From positions 2,540,479 to 2,604,478 of the forward strand of contig CM049321.1 in NCBI GenBank assembly GCA_026874595.1: a stretch of 64,000 nucleotides of DNA, read 5' to 3'. The notes under the pieces are model-generated. The model saw nothing but the letters and a program-made list of their open reading frames with translations, had not been told where the DNA came from and made no database searches. The position numbers were made by a program, and so were the translations under genes. This stretch comes from Sipunculus nudus (Eukaryota > Annelida > Sipuncula > Golfingiida > Sipunculidae). Shown in pieces: positions 4,977 to 63,300 of the stretch. Position 1 is the first letter of the stretch. Every line of letters begins with the position of its first letter.

Positions 4977-42955
<37,979 letters not shown>

Positions 42956-46271: not shown

Positions 46272-47745
46272 GTTAAAATATCAGAATTCTAAGTTGCAAT
46301 CATTATTTATCCAGAGTGTAGCAGCTATTGGGTCATATTATGCATACACATATATTTTATTATTTTTAAATCACAAATGTTTAAACTGAGTTTAAAAGAA
46401 AATAATGCCACATCATGGCATCTTCAAGATTATTCCTTGAATCACTATTAAAACGTTTTGTACATTTGGGTTTTCAGTACATCCTTAATTTTATTCACAA
46501 AAATAAAAGATTCAGTAAATTTGATCAAATAAAACATCTTTTCTGATAAAGTATACACACTGTTGGTTGAATGAGGGGACAAACAATATCATTTTGCTAA
46601 TTACTATCTCAGCTTTAATTTATTACTGGAATTAATAGTCAATTCCACACCTGGTGATGTTTTTATTCTTCTGAAGTAAGGAATTACTTATCTGTTGAAC
46701 ATCCACACTTTCATATCAATACACCACTTTGCGGACACAGTTACATGTACACTTTAATCATTGTAACCCTGATGGTACCATACAAAATTTAAAATGTAGC
46801 ATAGCCTAGAATAAGAATGAATCAAATACAATAAATGATAAAATTCATCTAGTTTATGCACCAGCTAGGGAAGGGGGAGTGCAGGTCAGAGGGGAAGCCT
46901 GCTAGTAGTGGCCAAGCTGAGCCAAGGTAAGCTGCCTGGAGAGGGTTACATAACAGAAGGCTGTACTATAGGTGGACTTGGTGTAAACAACACTTCACAT
47001 GGTGTATAAATATTTAAATAAAAGCTTCTCTTTTCAATCAATTCCTTTGAAATTTCAGATTTAAAAATCTGATCTAATTTTGGGTAAACAATTGAATCTT
47101 TATAAAAAAAGTTATATCCCTGAAAAGTCTCCAGCTTCAGCAATTCTCATGTTATGTGAGTAAATTTATTTCGTGATTTAAAAATAAACCATTATATTTG
47201 GGCCCATAACTTCAAAACAATAAGCAATACTGACCTAATTTTTGGTATATTCAAAGAAAATGTATGGAAGAATATGAATACTAAATATGATTAAAAAAGG
47301 TAGGTGGTTTTGATATTAGGCAGCCTTGAAGTGTAACAATGGCTTTTTAATGGAAAATTGAGGTTTTTCTTTAATATTTCAAAGGAGCAAAGCCCTAGTG
47401 ACCCAATTTTTGGTATGGTAGGAGATTTTGGGGACATCAAACTGTATGCAAAATTTTGGATTCATAGGTCCGACGGTTTCAAAACTTGCCCTGTTAACAG
47501 GTGAACCATCAGCTGAGCTAAAATCTGCACAAAGTTATCCATTATTTTATTTATTAATTATATTGTATGTAACTTATGCACATAATCTTAACAGACCAAA
47601 GGTAACATCAACAAAATCATTCATCAATGGCATATCATTTGAAAGATTTGATATAATTTAAATAGGAATATCGATGTTTGAATATACAAAATTTATTAAT
47701 TATTATTTAAACTTAATATCAACATTCTAACTTTTGATTTGCTTT
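46272..47745. other. Upstream region, no gene
   Basis: AT-rich; blocks such as GGCCCATAACTTC and ATTTTTGGTAT near 47200-47450 have the style of the noncoding repeats further right. No gene recognised. Confidence 0.4.
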
Positions 47746-48526: not shown

Positions 48527-51150
48527 AATTTGTTATGCATCACACTAAATTTGTTATTTCACCAAGGTTAATTGGTTAGTCTGGTGGTTTCTAATGAACG
48601 TGGGTTCACACTCAAAACCTTCTACAAATCTAAGAACATTTTAAGGACTTTCAAGGACCATATCCATCAGATAATAAAATCAATCTTAAAATATACAGAT
48701 ATAATTACTTCAATACTGCAGTTTTGAATTAATGCACTTGATGCTTTTTTTAAGGACCTGTTTCATATAGGCTAGCTGTATGAACCCTGTAGTTTGTGGA
48801 ATTTTTCTGGAGGGTCAGAATTCAACACCCTTGGAACAATCTGTTGTATCTTGGAGCCTGGAGGTAATCTGGAACACTATAACATTTTTTGGTTTATTTA
48901 AGGCCAAAAAAATAAGGTTGTTTCTCAGGCACTTTTTAAAGAAATCAATGCAATTGGGCAATTTATTTACCTTATTTGTATGTTTCGATAAAAATGTCAT
49001 ATGATCAGGAAAAAGCAGGAAAATAACATAATTTTTTGGCTTATTAGGTAACAACACTATATAAGAAAGGATATTTCATCAAAATTGTATTATTTTATCT
49101 AAGAAATGTTTGAGCAGCTGGAGCTCAAAATTGGTAAGTTCCTAAGGAAAATCAAAATCAAAATTGTTGATGCGGGGGGTTAAAATTGATGCGGGTTGTG
49201 CCTGAGAACCATACCTTTTATTTGTTTTGGCCTAAAGCATCCTATAACATTGTGAGATGGGGTAATTTCTTTGTACCAGCTAGGGGCCAGTGCAATTCAT
49301 GGGTATTAGGGGCTGCTTTTGTTCTGGAGCTGACCTGTTATCAAGTTATGGAGTTAATGAACTATGACAATGTTTGATACGGGTCAAGACAAGGATGTAC
49401 ATGTATATAATTTCAATTCTCGAGACTTTCTTTATCCAACTTTTGCCTAAAATTGCCAGGAGGGTATGCAATCATTTCTGTTTGTGTGTTAGTATGTTTA
49501 AGTGTGTGTTTGTGGGTTTGCTCATAAAATAACTCAGGCATCCATGAACAGAATCATCATGAAATTTTCAGGGCATTTCGGGAATGGGCCAAGGAGAAGA
49601 AAAATCAGTTATATGATGATGTTGATCCAGCATCTTCTCCGCATTCTAGAGCATCAACAAGGAATATTTACAAATGTACAGTCACATGTCACTGAGCATT
49701 TTTTGAAACTTGTGCTCCTATGGGGAAGGCATGTATACCTTTGAATGCAGATTTCTAGTGTTTTGCAATTAAATCCTGTGTTTATCTGATGAGAAGTCTA
49801 GATCTGTCCAGCAGAGTGTGAGAGGTTCTTGATTCTAGGAAAATGGGGAAATCTAAATAAAGGAGATGACATCATCAATTAATTTCCTTCATGCACACTG
49901 GCTCACACAAACCTTTGTTTGTGTGGAATAAGAGGAACACAACTTGGCCTGTTTTATGTTACATAATGACTGCGAATAGTCATCCAATTACATGTTAAGG
50001 TTTCCCCAATAGAGTTAAAATGATGAAAACTGTGTTTTTCAAACTTTAAAATTAATTTACTGTTTCCTCATTCTTTCTAATTTAAGAGAGCAACAGATCA
50101 CGATTTATGATTTTAACCATTTTTTTTAAGAAATGAAAGACATCTCAGTTTGTTCCTACAGCCCTGAATTAGGCAAAACACAATCTTTTCACAGGTAATA
50201 ATTGTATCGTAATTCGACTTAACCTTATAATTATACTTTATCATAAGTTTATGTATGTCAATAAATAGTGCTATGTACAAGAAATACATTTACTGCAACA
50301 TTATATTTATGACAAGTATACTTGTACCCCTTCACAGAAATCAACGGTAAAACAACTTAGGCATGAACAGAAAGCAAATACTGTGGATTCTGAGTTGTTC
50401 GTTGGGATTTTATTTTCTTGGAATTTGTGGTAACATTTATCCAAGAAATTAAAAACCCAAGATGATTAGGTTTATTATAAAATTTTTTAAGTCCATCGAC
50501 CTTGTGCATTGAGTTATGTCTTATGACATCATGTTGGCCCACTGTCACCATCCATGCTAACAAATGGTACTGATTAATAAAACTCAAAGAAAACAATATG
50601 TAGCCCATAAATTAAACAAGGCCTACAGGCCTAATGCGAACCTGTGCATATGGAAATACACCAGGTATAATACTTCAATGCTGGACCATTACATCTCATG
50701 TATATGAACAATGCAAGTACTAAACATTTTGAATAAGAAACAATTACACAAACAACACTACTGAAATTCTGGCATGGTTATACACAACACAAAAAATGAT
50801 TGTAGCTGGCACCGCAAGCCTTGTATACAACAAAGTTATCGGAGATATATACAAATGCCCAATTTCAGACTGATATATCAAGCCCCTCCTGAAAATAAGC
50901 AGGGACACACAGTGTGCAAAAAAATATTTGTAGGTGGCACCACCAGTCTTGTATACGACAAAGCTATTCAATAAGTATATATATATACTTATTTATATAT
51001 ATATGCCCAATTTCAGGCTGATATATCAAATTCCTCTGTAGAAATAAGCAGGCACATACACTGTGCAAAAGTCATTGCAGGTGGCGACACCTGTCTTGTA
51101 AAAGCCATCAAAGACACATAGACAGGTCAAAATATCAGGCCAATACATCA
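48527..51150. other. Upstream region with scattered repeat fragments
   Basis: 49500-49700 is a dispersed repeat shared with intron 1. From 50790 the first relatives of the palindrome family appear: GGCACCGCAAGCCTTGTATA, GGTGGCACCACCAGTCTTGT (50935) and GGTGGCGACACCTGTCTTGT (51069), about 135 bp apart. Confidence 0.5.
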
Positions 51151-51169
51151 AACTTACCTTGAGTCTAAT

Positions 51170-52229: not shown

Positions 52230-54330
52230 CATAAAAAACAGGTCAATGTAGGTGGCACTACAAAATCTGCAACTTCAAATATGAGTCATGTGACCATCAT
52301 TTGCACAATACTTGGTAGTTCTAGCTTCTGTCATTTCTGAGAGTACTATGTCGGTAAGCTTACTTGGCCAAGTGACTGTTCAAATTCATGTAACGCCACT
52401 AAAATTCATCGAATGCAAACCATTTGAACAAACTTGAGAGGGCTTGCCTCTGGGATCATTTCTTTAAAATATTGAAAAATTTGGCTTGACCATTTACAAG
52501 AAGACTTTAAAAGTTTTTCAGCCTTTTCCCTATAATATCTAAGTAAATGCAGATAGCAAAAAAATAAGCAAAATCCCACAAAATTTTATATGTGACAGAT
52601 TATTGAATAAAATCTGGGGCTGGTAGCTCCTGCTATTCCTGAGAAATTATGGGTTAATGTACAGATGACCAATGACCCCCGTACAAAAAAAGGTCAATGC
52701 AGGTGGCACCACCAATACCTAAATTTCATATATGACTCATGTGACCAACACTGGCATAAAATTTGGTGATGATAGCTCTGGCCATTTCTGAGACTGTCAT
52801 TTTAGTGTGCTTTTTTGGACAGATGACTAAGTTCAACTTCCTGTAACTCGGCAAAAATTCAATGAACTTGAACCATTCAAACAAACTTGAGAGAGATGAT
52901 ATAAAAGATTATTTCTGTGAAATATTAAATAATTTGGCTTGACAGTTTCAGAGGAGAAGATTTTTAAAGGTTTTTAGCTTTTTCTCTAAAAAATCTAAGA
53001 AAATGCAGAATTTTTCAGATGGCTAATTTTTTGCATTAAATTTCATGATGCTAGTATGTTTACCAATTATTAATAATCCATGTACAGCCGTCTTTATCCA
53101 CAGAGAGCTGTATACCTGTGATTGTAAACATTGCCTGGCATGAGAAATATCTAAAATCATGAATCTACATTTTTAAAACCTTTTAAAAAAACATTCTTGT
53201 CAATATTAACCATAGATAACCTGAAATCTAAATGTCTATACAGGCATGATGCAACGGATGCTGATAAACTGGTGCCAGGCTAGATATATCTGCTTCACAC
53301 AGCTAACCTGGTAAAATGACTCAATTCAATCTTTATAATTCAGCCAAAATTCATTCTTTGGAACCATAATAGACAATTATTAAAAGAATTATTCAGGGAA
53401 TTATTCTTGTAAAATATTAAACAAATTGGCCTCAGTGGCATCAGTCAAAAATTGTTTTACAGGTTTATAACTCATATGGGAAAATACAGCAAAATGGCTA
53501 AGTTAAGCTTCCCATAACTCAGCCAAAAATCACTGAACCAAAACCATTTGAACAAACTTGAATTAGCAATATCTAAGGATAATAATGTGTGAGATTTAAG
53601 AATTTGGCCCAGTGATTTTTGAGAAGAAGGTCTTTGTAGCCACTGAGCTAAAATGGGCTGTTACAGCATATGACTAAATTTAGCTTCCCATAACTCAGCC
53701 AAAAGTCACTGAACTGAGACCATTTGAACAAACTTCAGAAAGCACTACCCTAGGCTCATTTCTGTGCGATATTACTCAATTTGGCCATATGGTTTCAGAG
53801 AAGAAGTTTTTTGTAGCCGTCATTATGTTACGGTCACTGATGACCCCCCTACAATAAATGCTGATGCAGGTGGCGCCACCTATACCTCAAATTCAGATAT
53901 GACTCATGTGACCAACATTGGCATAAAATCTGGTGATGACAGCTCCAGCTGTTTCTTAGATTGTAATTTTAAAATGCTTTTTTGGACAGATGACTAAGTT
54001 CAACTTCCTGTAACTCAGCCAAAAATCACTGAACTTAAACCATTCAAACAAACTTGAGAAAGATTGTTCCAGGAATCATTTCTGTGAAATATTTGACAAT
54101 TTGGCTGAACAGTTTCGGAGAAGAAGATTTTTAAAGGTTTTTGCTTTTTCCCTATAAAATTTACTAAAATGCAGTTAGCCAAAAAACAAGCAAAATCTGA
54201 TTGAGTTTTTCAGATGACTAATTTTTTGCATAAAATTTCGTGATGCTAACTCATGCCATTTTCAAGTTAGTATGGGTTAACGTACAGACGACGGACGACA
54301 GACGGCTCACAGGTTCGCTAAAAAAAACTA
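52230..54330. repeat. Tandem array with CTTCC(T/C)(G/A)TAACTC.GCCAAAA units
   Basis: Repeating order: a GGTGG(C/A).CCACC core (52251, 52697 and a perfect one at 53869-53880), GACTCATGTGACCAACATTG, GTAACTCAGCCAAAAATCAC, ACCATTTGAACAAACTTGAG, TTCTGTGAAATATT and GAGAAGAAG. The array ends with a GACGACGGACGACAGACGG run. Noncoding, plus orientation. Confidence 0.85.
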
Positions 54331-54999: not shown

Positions 55000-55112
55000 A
55001 ACTAGAATACGGGTAGTCGACAAGCGACTACATGTATCCACCTAAATCAGAGTGGAACGGGTGAAGTGAGGCATGGATTGAGTGGCAAGGGAAAATTAAG
55101 TGTTGCATATTA
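55000..55112. repeat. Second copy of the repeat next to ICA1 exon 6
   Basis: Same orientation and about 90% identical to 25404-25523. It carries the perfect stem-loop GTAGTCG-ACAAG-CGACTAC. The palindrome array starts just after it. Confidence 0.8.
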
Positions 55113-55127
55113 GCATGGATGTCTGCA

Positions 55128-56790
55128 GCCAAATTGTGTATGTAGGTTGCCCCCCATACCACAAAATCCAGAAAGCCGTCCAAGTTGTATACATATGCAA
55201 AATTTAAGGCAGATAAGTCAAACCACTACATGTATATGAATGATTTTAGCCCATGGCAGACAAACAGATGGACGCTGAGCAAAAATGGTTGCAGGTGACG
55301 CCACCAGTTTTGCGTATGATAGAGCTATGTGAGAACTATACACATGCAAAACTTTGGCCCAATCGGTCAAACGGTTCCCAAGATATGAGCTTGGATGTCT
55401 GCTGCATAAACTAGAATGCAGGTGGCGCCACCTGTCATAAAATCAAGAGAGCTGTCGGGGATGTATAAACCTGCAAAATTTTAGGCAGATATGTCAAACC
55501 ACTGCCAAGATATGAGTGATTTTATCCAATGGGTAGACAAACAGACAGGAGCTGAGCAAAAATGGCTGCAGGTGGCGCCACCAGTTTTGCGTATGATGAA
55601 GAGCTATGTGAGATCTATACACATGCAAAATTTTGGCCCAATCGGTCAAACGGTTCCCGAGATATGAGCTTGGATGTCAGCAGTGTAAACGTGAATGTAG
55701 GTGGCGCCACCTGTCATAAAATCAGAAAAGCTATCCAGGATGTTTACCCATGCCGAATTTCAGGTGAATTAGTCTAGTCACTGCAGAGATATGAGTGATT
55801 TTAACCCAAGTCAGACGAACAGATGGACACTTTGCAAACATGGTTGCAGGTGGCGCCACCATTTTTTGTGTATGTTATAAAGCTCTCCAAGGGCTATATT
55901 TGTGCAAAAAAAATTTTCTGATCGGTCAAACGGTTCCCGAGATATGAGCTTGGATGTCTGCAGCGTAAACGTGAATGAAGGTGGCGCCACCTGTCATAAA
56001 ATCAGAAAAGCTATCCAGGATGTGTTCGCATGCCGAATTTCAGGTGAATTAGTCTAGTCACTGCAGAGATATGAGTGATTTTAACCCAAGGCAGACGAAC
56101 AGATGGACACTGTGCAAACATGGTTGCAGGTGGTGCCACCATTTTTTGTGTATGTTATAAAGCTCTCCAAGGGCTACATTTGTGCAAAAAAATTTTCCTG
56201 ATCGGTCAAACGGTTCCCGAGATATGAGCTTGGATGTCTGCAGCGTAAACGTGAATGTAGGTGGCGCCACCTGTCATAAAATCAGAAAAGCTATCCAGGA
56301 TGTGTAAGCATGCCGAACTTCAGGTGAATTAGTCAAGTCACTGCAGAGATATGAGTGATTTTAACCCAAGGCAGACGAACAGATGGATACTGTGCAAACA
56401 TGGTTGCAGGTGGCGCCACCATTTTTTGTGTATGTTATAAAGCTCTCCAAGGGCTACATTTGTGCAAAAAGATTTTCCTGATCGGTCAAACGGTTCCCGA
56501 GATATGAGCTTGGATGTCTGCAGCGTAAACGTGAATGTAGGTGGCGCCACCTGTCATAAAATCAGAAAAGCTATCCAGGATGTTTACACATGCCAAATTT
56601 CAGGTGAATTAGTCTAGTCACTGCAGAGATATGAGTGATTTTAACCCAAGGCAGACGAACAGATGGACACTGTGTAAACATGGTTGCAGGTGGCGCCACC
56701 ATTTTTTGTGTATGTTATAAAGCTCTCCAAGGGCTACATTTGTGTAAAAAAAATTTCCTGATCGGTCAATCGGTTCCCGAGATATGTGGG
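55128..56790. repeat. Tandem array centred on the palindrome GGTGGCGCCACC
   Basis: The palindrome, exact or with one change, sits at 55294, 55421, 55571, 55700, 55849, 55980, 56129, 56260, 56409, 56540 and 56689. Spacing alternates about 131 and 149 bp, so the unit is 280 bp made of two diverged half-units. One continues ACCATTTTTTGTGTATG, the other ACCTGTCATAAAATCAG; both end in GAGATATGAG. The last 280-bp units are almost identical. Spurious ORFs of 70 codons recur at 280-bp steps. The array ends in ACGGACGCAGAGCGCAG. Confidence 0.95.
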
Positions 56791-57796
56791 TTTATGTGTG
56801 GAAACAGACGCACAAACGGACGCAGAGCGCAGAGGAAAGGTCAGAGGTCAAAACAAAATCGGGGCGCAGCAGTTCACATGTGACCCGAACACAATCCCGG
56901 GTTTCATAAAATTCCGCCCAGCGGTTACGGAGGAGTTCTCCGGACACCTACACGGCGGCGGCGGCGGCGGCGTGCAGCTGAAAACATAGTATCCGCAAAA
57001 CTCTGTTTTGGCGGATACAATGACAGACTGTTTACCAACACGCAGGGTTATAACATGGTGTAAAACCGTCGTATGCAAGGAAATGAGACTGTGTGCTGGA
57101 ATGGTTTTACTGGGAAACATTTGTATAAAGCAAAACTGTACTGATAGTGTGAAAGAATAGGAATAATATTGCTCCTGATTATGTCCCTTTAATGTTTATA
57201 GTATGTGAAAGAATGTCTTCCAACTGGATTCAAAATAGGCTCGGCCTGACTTCTCAAGACAATAACCAGAGGTGTACAAATTCCAAAATAAATAAGCATG
57301 AGGGAAGAAACTTTGTTAAAATGTATGCAAGTTTTATTATTGTATACATTAAGAATCATATACACTGCAGTGTGTATGGTGGTAGAACCGTTATCTTGTA
57401 CTTTATCATTGCACCATGAAGAAACTGGTGAAAACCCAGTTTACATTTTAAGTTCATATAGTACACCTTATCATGCATGTATGAGCTAATTTCCATTAAA
57501 AATAAAACAAGAACTGTTCAAGAATCGTTGTTGCATTTTCGCGATCTCACAAGAACCTATATCAAATCTTTGGCAAAGCCATATACCTGTGTGTATTATA
57601 AAATGAGAATAAGTCATGAGTTTGTGACATTTTCTTATATAATGATAGGCCCCCACACACAGCATAGGTGGTTTAGATAAATTTAAGGCTTACATTTCCC
57701 TATATCTGCAAGGATGTAATCTATTAAAAAAGTTCTCTCTGTTTTAACCTATTTCCATACAAGTATTGATCACACTAAATAAGAAGGACATTCTCA

Positions 57797-57899: not shown

Positions 57900-59280
57900 A
57901 ACACATAGGGTCTCTGTCCACGTTCTAACATGCTTTCTGTGTTCTCATGCATTTTTTATGTAATATGGTCAGAAGTTTTTAGATGATTCTACAATGCGAG
58001 AAAAAACACTATCTTTATGTTAGCAAAATGTTAAACTGTAAGGGCCCCGAAAGTCTGATGCCATACGATACCCATGTCAGAAGCTTTACTGGATATTACT
58101 GGGCAAGCCCATTGCAATTATGGACAAAATATAATGATCTGTAGCTTTTTGACTAATAATAACTTTTAAACCAGGAATACATCCCACATGATATGTGTCC
58201 CTTTTTTTAGTACAAATTTTTAATTTTGCTTTTTATACTTACCAATGTGTTTTCAATGGACTGTCTCCAGAATTTTCATGCATATAATCCAATTTCATAT
58301 TTATTAAAGTTCTGTTATATGTGTGACTAGTGTGTCCTTTTTTTGAATAAATATTTCACTATATTCACATATACGTGCATGTAAGTTTAACCATGATGTA
58401 TCATTACATCCATATACATATACTTATGCATTAAACAGGGTTGTCATATGGTTGTATACTAACAACAACTCTTATCAGTCTTTTTTAATGTGCAGGTTAT
58501 CTTATAATTAACACAGCTGGACTATTATATGGTTGGTGCAATTATGGGAAACCAAGAAACATTTTATCAGATTTTTTATTTCATTTTCTGCAAAAACGAT
58601 GAAGGGCCCGAGTATACAATCCGGTCTTCATTTCCAAGATGCGTCTAAACTGACTGGACCATTCCATATTGGAAGTAAGCAACATAAGCCATGACATGCC
58701 TGATGATATGACATCGACATGCCTCATACTTCTCCATTACATGTATCCTAAACATCATTACGTCCGTCTGTATGCACCCATAAACTCATCCATATAGACC
58801 GGATCCTATACTTGCTCCCTATGAAGCATCCCTTGGCAGATTCCAATAAACGCTGTTTATACGATAAAGCAATTAATAATATCTAGTGATATTTTTAAAA
58901 TTTGATTGAAACTGATGTTATAATATAATATTAAATTTTAACATATAGTTTAGTTGTATTTACTTAAGTGTCCATAAAATTGTCTGCAAAAATGTACTTC
59001 ATATTGCCTGGATTGGAGTAAATGTATTAAGACCTCTGACATCTGAATTTTGGCATCCAAGTTTTCAGACTATAGCAGTAATGTCAATATAATTTATCAA
59101 TAATAATATATTGAGGAATTGACGTGATTGTGAACTGGTATGTGAGATAGCATTTACCTTGTAACACTAAAATAACACTAATTAATGAAAACTGCTGTAT
59201 AACAACCTTATTATGCCTTTTAAAAATAATGTGCTTTATATCCCTTTACTATTACACCCGCGTATACACCCATATACAGT
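57900..59280. other. Upstream region, no gene
   Basis: Only a weak inverted pair (GTATACAATCCGGTCT near 58612 and AGACCGGATCCTATAC near 58797) suggests a small foldback. No coding sequence recognised. Confidence 0.4.
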
Positions 59281-62880: not shown

Positions 62881-62903
62881 CATGCATCACATTCTTAATT
62901 AAT

Positions 62904-63300
62904 TTACCAATTAGTGAGATACAGACTTATTGCATTGGATAATAATTTACACTGAAATTCATATTTCTACAACTAAATAATTTATTTTTCTGTGCCCCAA
63001 TAGGCCCCTCGGTAAGTCTTCTCGTAGAATCTTCAAAAAAAATTTTTATCAATCGTAGATTTGCATGAGTAATTAGATAATTTGCATATTTAAACCCATT
63101 TGCCAATTGGTGAGATACAGACTTATTGCACTGGAAAATAATTTAAGACTGAAATTCATATTTCTACAACAAAAAAAATTATTTTTGTGCCCCAATAGGC
63201 CCCTTGGTAAGTGTTCCCGTAGAAACTTGAAATAAATGTTTATCAATCTTAGATTTGCATGTGTAATTAGATAATTTTCATATTCAAACCCTGAAAGGTG
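62904..63300. repeat. Tandem duplication, ~195-bp period
   Basis: CCAATTAGTGAGATACAGAC... CCCCAATAGGCCCC... TTGCATGAGTAATTAGATAA is present twice (from 62907 and 63103) with about 90% identity, ending GAAAGGTGGCATATTCCTTTA. It accounts for most of the minus-strand 152-codon frame at 63073-63531. Confidence 0.85.

Follow-up and report, generated by a model that had tools for sequence, protein, structure and literature searches.

A phased palindrome array that is probably the core of a non-autonomous Helentron

The window analysed here is a single 64-kb stretch of AT-rich DNA (28.5-40.7% GC in 2-kb steps) containing two reading frames of at least 150 amino acids. The longer frame, at 12163-14103, encodes a TRIM-NHL protein that, among solved structures, best matches TRIM71, fly Thin, TRIM3 and TRIM2; on the minus strand, an exon at about 25530-25757 matched the Arfaptin domain. 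Together these two features identify the window as animal DNA. No match was obtained anywhere in the window against Rfam at gathering scores. Toward one end of the window lies a tandem array of about 1.68 kb, in which TRF detected 6.0 copies of a 280-bp period with 88% matches, and which carries phased copies of the 12-bp palindrome GGTGGCGCCACC (Table 1). The results presented below rest on this one window and on published descriptions.

Table 1. Features of the array, of the element proposed around it and of related copies in the window. Strand is given as a dot where a feature has none.
Feature	Position	Strand	Basis and details
Probable non-autonomous Helentron (HINE-like element), whole, limits approximate	55000-57020	-	3' limit, onset of homology to the 25404 copy; 5' limit, hairpin of subterminal repeat (subTIR) and inverted partner
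3' palindrome, hairpin GTAGTCG..CGACTAC	55013-55031	-	Hairpin scan, alignment, DNA fold
3' subterminal inverted repeat GTATCCACCTAAA	55034-55046	-	11/13 match to the 5' one; sister copy at 25439-25451
Central tandem array	55107-56786	-	TRF, spacings, alignment; 280-bp dimers of a 149-bp (A) and a 131-bp (B) half-unit
Degenerate palindrome site, 8/12 letters	55145-55156	.	In the first, divergent unit; twelfth site of the array
Eleven palindromes GGTGGCGCCACC	55294-56700	.	Starts 55294 (1 mismatch), 55421, 55571, 55700, 55849, 55980, 56129 (1 mismatch), 56260, 56409, 56540, 56689
(CGG)n microsatellite within the 5' module	56953-56972	.	Sequence
5' subterminal repeat GTATCCGCCAAAA and inverted partner	56989-57018	-	Hairpin, 11 pairs, 1 mismatch
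Second copy of the first-family 3' module	25404-25506	-	Alignment, 90.3% over 103 bp, E 1e-36; no core repeats seen
Second-family HINE-like element	33355-34381	-	Weak left hairpin, subTIR, 302-bp core repeats, GGAC-type microsatellite, 5' hairpin
Second copy of the second family	22871-23383	-	Apparently one core unit; decayed palindrome site CATGGCACCCCC at 23042
Third short array, three related units	50787-51164	-	nhmmer matches

The eleven palindromes given for the array in a preliminary description of this DNA were recovered, nine of them exact and two with one mismatch. In array order their spacings are 127, 150, 129, 149, 131, 149, 131, 149, 131 and 149 bp. The strict 131/149 alternation reported for them holds as an alternation throughout the array, with the exact 149/131 values appearing only from 55700 onward. 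When up to two mismatches were allowed, the whole window contained 18 palindrome sites against 0.37 expected, an enrichment that none of 100 dinucleotide shuffles reached. Eleven of these sites lie in the array and seven elsewhere, namely two exact ones (640 and 53869), four with one mismatch (34037, 50933, 51080 and 52702) and one with two (33734). The late dimers are almost identical, as had been noted, with 95.0-97.1% mutual identity among dimers 3-6. Dimers 1 and 2 are 82.6% identical to each other and 73.6-77.3% identical to dimers 3-6, and are either older or another variant.

The two half-units of the dimer are themselves diverged copies of one sequence, with 69 of 127 aligned columns identical between the A and B consensus. 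Besides the palindrome, a second box of 10 bp, GAGATATGAG, is identical between them. A is longer than B mainly because of about 22 bases that follow its GAGATATGAG box and are unique to A in the alignment. They end in a CAGACGAACAGATGGAC stretch and resemble a microsatellite tail. DNA folding gave nothing unusual for the repeat, since neither of the half-units tested outdid shuffled versions of itself in stability (z 1.33 and -0.44), and the palindrome in its flanking sequence folded as ordinary sequence does (z -1.05, 23 of 200 shuffles as stable). A hairpin role for the palindrome is therefore unsupported. A coding repeat was considered as well and is unlikely, because the 280-bp period is not divisible by 3 and the array contains no long frame.

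Both sides of the array carry structured modules. The 3' hairpin region (55005-55060) and the 5' hairpin region (56980-57027) gave fold z scores of -4.56 and -6.76, and in neither case was any of 200 shuffles equally stable. Read on the minus strand, GTATCCGCCAAAA forms the outer arm of the right hairpin, and it matches the subterminal repeat on the other side of the array at 11 of 13 positions, with both mismatches in the 3' repeat. We scanned the whole window for such end pairs and obtained ten at 10/13 or better, including the pair 33359/34374 (10/13) of a second family described below, and two at 11/13 or better, one belonging to the array and the other (1688/2560) located away from it. 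Two of the ten pairs lie beside the two arrays. Taken alone the scan is weak evidence for element ends: 20 shuffled windows gave 1-10 pairs at the lower threshold (mean 4.5, with one shuffle reaching 10) and 0-2 pairs at the higher one, with 5 of the 20 above zero. The region 55000-57020 has no coding capacity, in that it holds no open reading frame of at least 150 amino acids and the only stop-to-stop frame of at least 110 amino acids overlapping it has 115.

These features, that is two end modules with hairpins and matching subterminal repeats (with an inverted partner at the 5' end), a microsatellite, a tandem core and the lack of a long open frame, correspond to the plan of HINE elements. 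That plan is described as a 5' subTIR, an inverted repeat and a microsatellite, central repeats mostly of 140-180 bp, a 3' subTIR and a palindrome (PMC7492417, PMC4067079). The array is probably the satellite-like core of one such element, a non-autonomous Helentron (HINE, Pearl-like) that occupies about 55000-57020 on the minus strand. The phased palindromes would then be part of a mobile element, which the preliminary description did not include. Elements of this kind are already known from animal genomes, and the member found here is new.

The closest published counterparts come from bivalves. The Cg_HINE elements of the Pacific oyster, which are non-autonomous Helentrons with satDNA-like cores, are described with the same order of parts (5' subTIR and inverted partner, microsatellite, tandem core, 3' subTIR and hairpin), core consensus units of 138-181 bp and, in several of them, GTCC-type microsatellites like those of the second family here (PMC7492417). 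At the level of these descriptions, our core differs in its two-phase dimeric build and its perfect 12-bp palindrome. Pearl elements likewise have short arrays, in which core repeats of about 160 bp number six at most, and DTC84 of Donax trunculus, compared by description only, has a conserved palindrome in its core that lies near the repeat junction, which the palindrome here does not (PMC5139131, PMC7492417). In the BIV160/Cg170 satellite family, diverged monomers share two conserved motifs, as our half-units do by description, although those monomers are longer (PMC5139131).

The main competing view is that the array is an ordinary dimeric (higher-order) satellite or minisatellite maintained by unequal exchange, with no mobile element and with flanking hairpins that arose by chance. 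We consider this unlikely. It accounts well for the contrast between the homogeneous dimers 3-6 and the different dimers 1 and 2, which is the usual picture of local homogenisation, and hairpin and subTIR pairs do occur in shuffles. However, the array holds only six dimers, the left flank recurs 30 kb away as a copy of its own without an array, and a second family repeats the same plan in two copies that differ in unit number. The second copy of one end and the second family, whose core carries this palindrome site as well, also support the HINE reading.

The left-flank copy shows homology to the 3' module from 25404 to about 25523, stopping close to the point where the array starts in the main element. 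At the 3' limit the minus strand of both first-family copies reads CTAG followed by TT, which is only suggestive of insertion at TT. The window contains a single 5' end of this family. It was also observed that the 3'-end-only copy (25404-25529) ends within a few bases of an apparent splice donor of the Arfaptin-domain exon, and the copy looks as if it sits in the adjoining intron.

The second family is represented by the elements at 33355-34381, with about two 302-bp core units, and 22871-23383. BLAST aligned their left modules over 154 bp at 82.5% and the right ones over 96 bp at 87.5%; we used BLAST for this comparison, as a MAFFT alignment was wrong at the left end because the unit numbers differ between the copies. 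Their GGAC-type microsatellites lie at about 34305-34331 and 23315-23333. In the longer copy the two hairpins differ in strength, the right one being strong (z -5.41) and the left one weak (z -1.88, equalled in stability by 12 of 200 shuffles), and the core contains palindrome sites at 33734 and 34037 (GGTGGAGCCCCC and GGTGGTGCCACC). The two families differ in their ends and have the palindrome box of the core in common. Thus at least two element families share one short box despite their different ends, whereas the core around it mostly drifts.

Further related repeats occur in the window. Beside the third short array (50787-51164), a hairpin scan found no HINE-type hairpins. A large block of related modules at 52234-54300 (repeat families D5-D7 and D9) carries palindrome sites at 52251, 52702 and 53869 and terminates in GACGGACGACAGACGG; it looks like a further HINE-type core, and the hairpin scan gave no convincing ends for it.

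A second alternative concerns the palindrome itself, which could be a breakpoint or recombination node at which array junctions are made. The precedent is the phBglII400 satellite of the clam Ruditapes philippinarum, whose monomer consists of two repeated, related halves with 12-bp and 10-bp palindromes, and in which 13 of 16 junctions are reported at the longer palindrome (PMC5139131). Our array is alike in its halves and its 12-bp palindrome, the palindromes being likened by description and not by letters. Where the clam junctions fall at the palindrome, however, both ends of the single array available here fall in the GAGATAT box. The nearest palindrome sites are the degenerate one at 55145, 38 bases from the array end at 55107, and the one ending at 56700, 86 bases from the array end at 56786. 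We therefore regard a recombination node as quite improbable. Conserved motifs have been described in bivalve core repeats and satellites, and their part in junction formation has been questioned (PMC5139131). The suggestion that the palindrome might be a cleavage site found nothing in its support, the array ends lying at the GAGATAT box instead.

We then compared the conservation of the palindrome with that of its surroundings. Between the A and B half-units the palindrome is identical at 12 of 12 positions against 57 of the 115 other columns (hypergeometric P 4e-4, at a place already picked beforehand). A fairer test is given by the longest run shared by the two half-units, the 13-bp AGGTGGCGCCACC, whose length was reached in 1,200 of 100,000 permutations. 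The palindrome is thus kept in the diverged half-units beyond its surroundings, as first described, though not alone, since the 10-bp GAGATATGAG box is identical too. Among ten of the array units, differences from the half-unit consensus affect 0/60 palindrome letters in A and 2/60 in B, compared with 50/685 and 61/587 letters elsewhere (P 0.03 and 0.11). For recent units the corresponding values (0/48 against 13/548 and 1/36 against 5/357) show no clear contrast.

A wider set consisted of 15 pairwise comparisons, eight between half-units or lineages and seven within lineages or arrays, which share members and are not independent. Between lineages, the palindrome scored 12/12 (rest 53/109), 11/12 twice (rest 54/93), 11/12 (rest 55/111), 11/12 (rest 45/111), and 8/12 both for the A consensus against 50804 (rest 60/112) and for the B consensus against 23042 (rest 47/111). 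The eighth comparison, at 12/12 (rest 40/111), is biased because the site was picked through its palindrome. In all seven comparisons that were not chosen via the palindrome alone, it exceeded the rest, at 8-12 of 12 against 41-58%. Within lineages it was ahead in three of seven (10/12 against 55/87, 10/12 against 78/112, and 11/12 against 88/113, the last involving two sites found via the palindrome) and equal or worse in four (8/12 against 80/112, 9/12 against 71/93, 10/12 against 100/113 and 7/12 against 67/113). Over 22 sites, 9 of 23 changes fell on the central CpG, seven of these being CpG-type transitions (P 0.009), which is what methylated DNA without protection would be expected to show.

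Sites 640, 52702 and 53869 owe their detection to the palindrome and are biased toward conservation. A model was also built of the half-unit part after the palindrome, with the palindrome left out. Beyond the eleven regular units, this model matched at E <0.1 at 55165 (the divergent first unit), 50820, 50946, 23111, 47444 and 34094. Near the expected place, 8-11 of the 12 palindrome letters were present at five of these six matches and 6 of 12 at 47444. Matches with E >1, other than known sites, had 4-6 letters, which is the chance level; the site at 51080 was recovered at E 1.5 only.

Selection or constraint on the palindrome, as proposed in the preliminary description, is upheld in part. Set against its flanks the palindrome gives a split result, being better kept in every usable comparison between lineages (twice at only 8/12) and in a minority within lineages or arrays, with changes piling up at the central CpG. 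This difference makes the constraint look like a property of element lineages and not of each genomic site. If the palindrome were bound by a host protein, such as one that binds DNA as a dimer, and selected at each genomic copy, then its perfect agreement between half-units that are otherwise half alike would be accounted for, as would its lead in three within-lineage comparisons; the four comparisons without such a lead and the excess of changes at the central CpG speak against this explanation, which we hold to be very unlikely. The pattern appears to fit a conserved box of the element better than host selection on each copy. Our reading of these small, non-independent numbers is that constraint would act in replicating lineages, with decay afterwards, and the three within-lineage comparisons that the palindrome leads count against entirely free decay. 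Somewhat unusually, the palindrome changes little from one element lineage to another, while the surrounding sequence drifts.

On the reading of the array as a HINE core, we can outline how it may have formed. An autonomous Helentron located elsewhere in the genome would supply the Rep/Helicase that recognises the ends of the element; it is established knowledge, also described in PMC4067079, that non-autonomous copies depend for their movement on the Rep/Helicase of such a relative. The element would spread by rolling-circle copying, and its core array would expand and be homogenised through slippage or unequal exchange of whole A+B dimers. The palindrome would represent one of two conserved boxes in a superfamily of core repeats. 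Replicating lineages would retain it, probably for a contribution to array formation or for the binding of a protein, and it would decay after insertion. If this were true genome-wide, then the palindrome would be a concrete and testable candidate for a functional part of HINE core repeats.

A bolder proposal is that the palindrome consists of two overlapping CTCF-type cores (AGGTGGCGC, one per strand), and that the elements would seed phased, symmetrical arrays of predicted architectural-protein sites in an invertebrate genome. In that case CTCF-type sites would be kept since binding aids element copying or escape from silencing. The full CTCF motif, which we take to be CCASYAGRKGGCRS, comprises the core AGGTGGCGC and a 5' part. 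The core is present on both strands in A units, where T follows, and on at least one strand in B units. Of the five plus-strand bases that precede the core (AATGT and GTTGC), two of five fit the CTCF positions as we presume them. The proposal stays bold because the 5' part of this motif is unmatched, and we judge it highly improbable. Oligonucleotides given for CTCF sites do contain the AGGTGGCGC core (PMC6344568, PMC6925871). A search of article text in one literature library, with sequences in figures outside its scope, found no paper joining the internal tandem repeats of Helitrons with CTCF.

Searches of other sequence collections added little. TTGCAGGTGGCGCCACC occurred at two loci in a viral contig collection, neither of them useful. 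The palindrome combined with GAGATATNAG gave no match in viral contigs and one in genome contigs, on a Nocardia contig, which we take as chance, and GAGATAT combined with GACGGACGGACGG gave none in viral contigs. In the article text of the same library, again with figure sequences outside the scope, the 12-mer palindrome appeared in one chitinase paper, and GTGGCGCCAC together with 'satellite' in none.

Some smaller observations concern the remainder of the window. All core-unit matches with E <0.004, which extend over 636-56786, have a single orientation; the best minus-strand match (E 0.0044) lies inside the array itself. With only about six separate loci, this bias is possibly chance. At 58762-58788, within a GACGGAC-type stretch, the minus strand weakly matches the beginning of the first-family right flank over 27 bp (81.5%, E 0.16), perhaps as a remnant of an oppositely oriented element. 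A 194-bp unit is repeated twice at 88% at 62902-63291, and at 16309-16578 a unit of 145 bp that includes AGATATGAG, a sequence similar to the main array's box, is duplicated in tandem.
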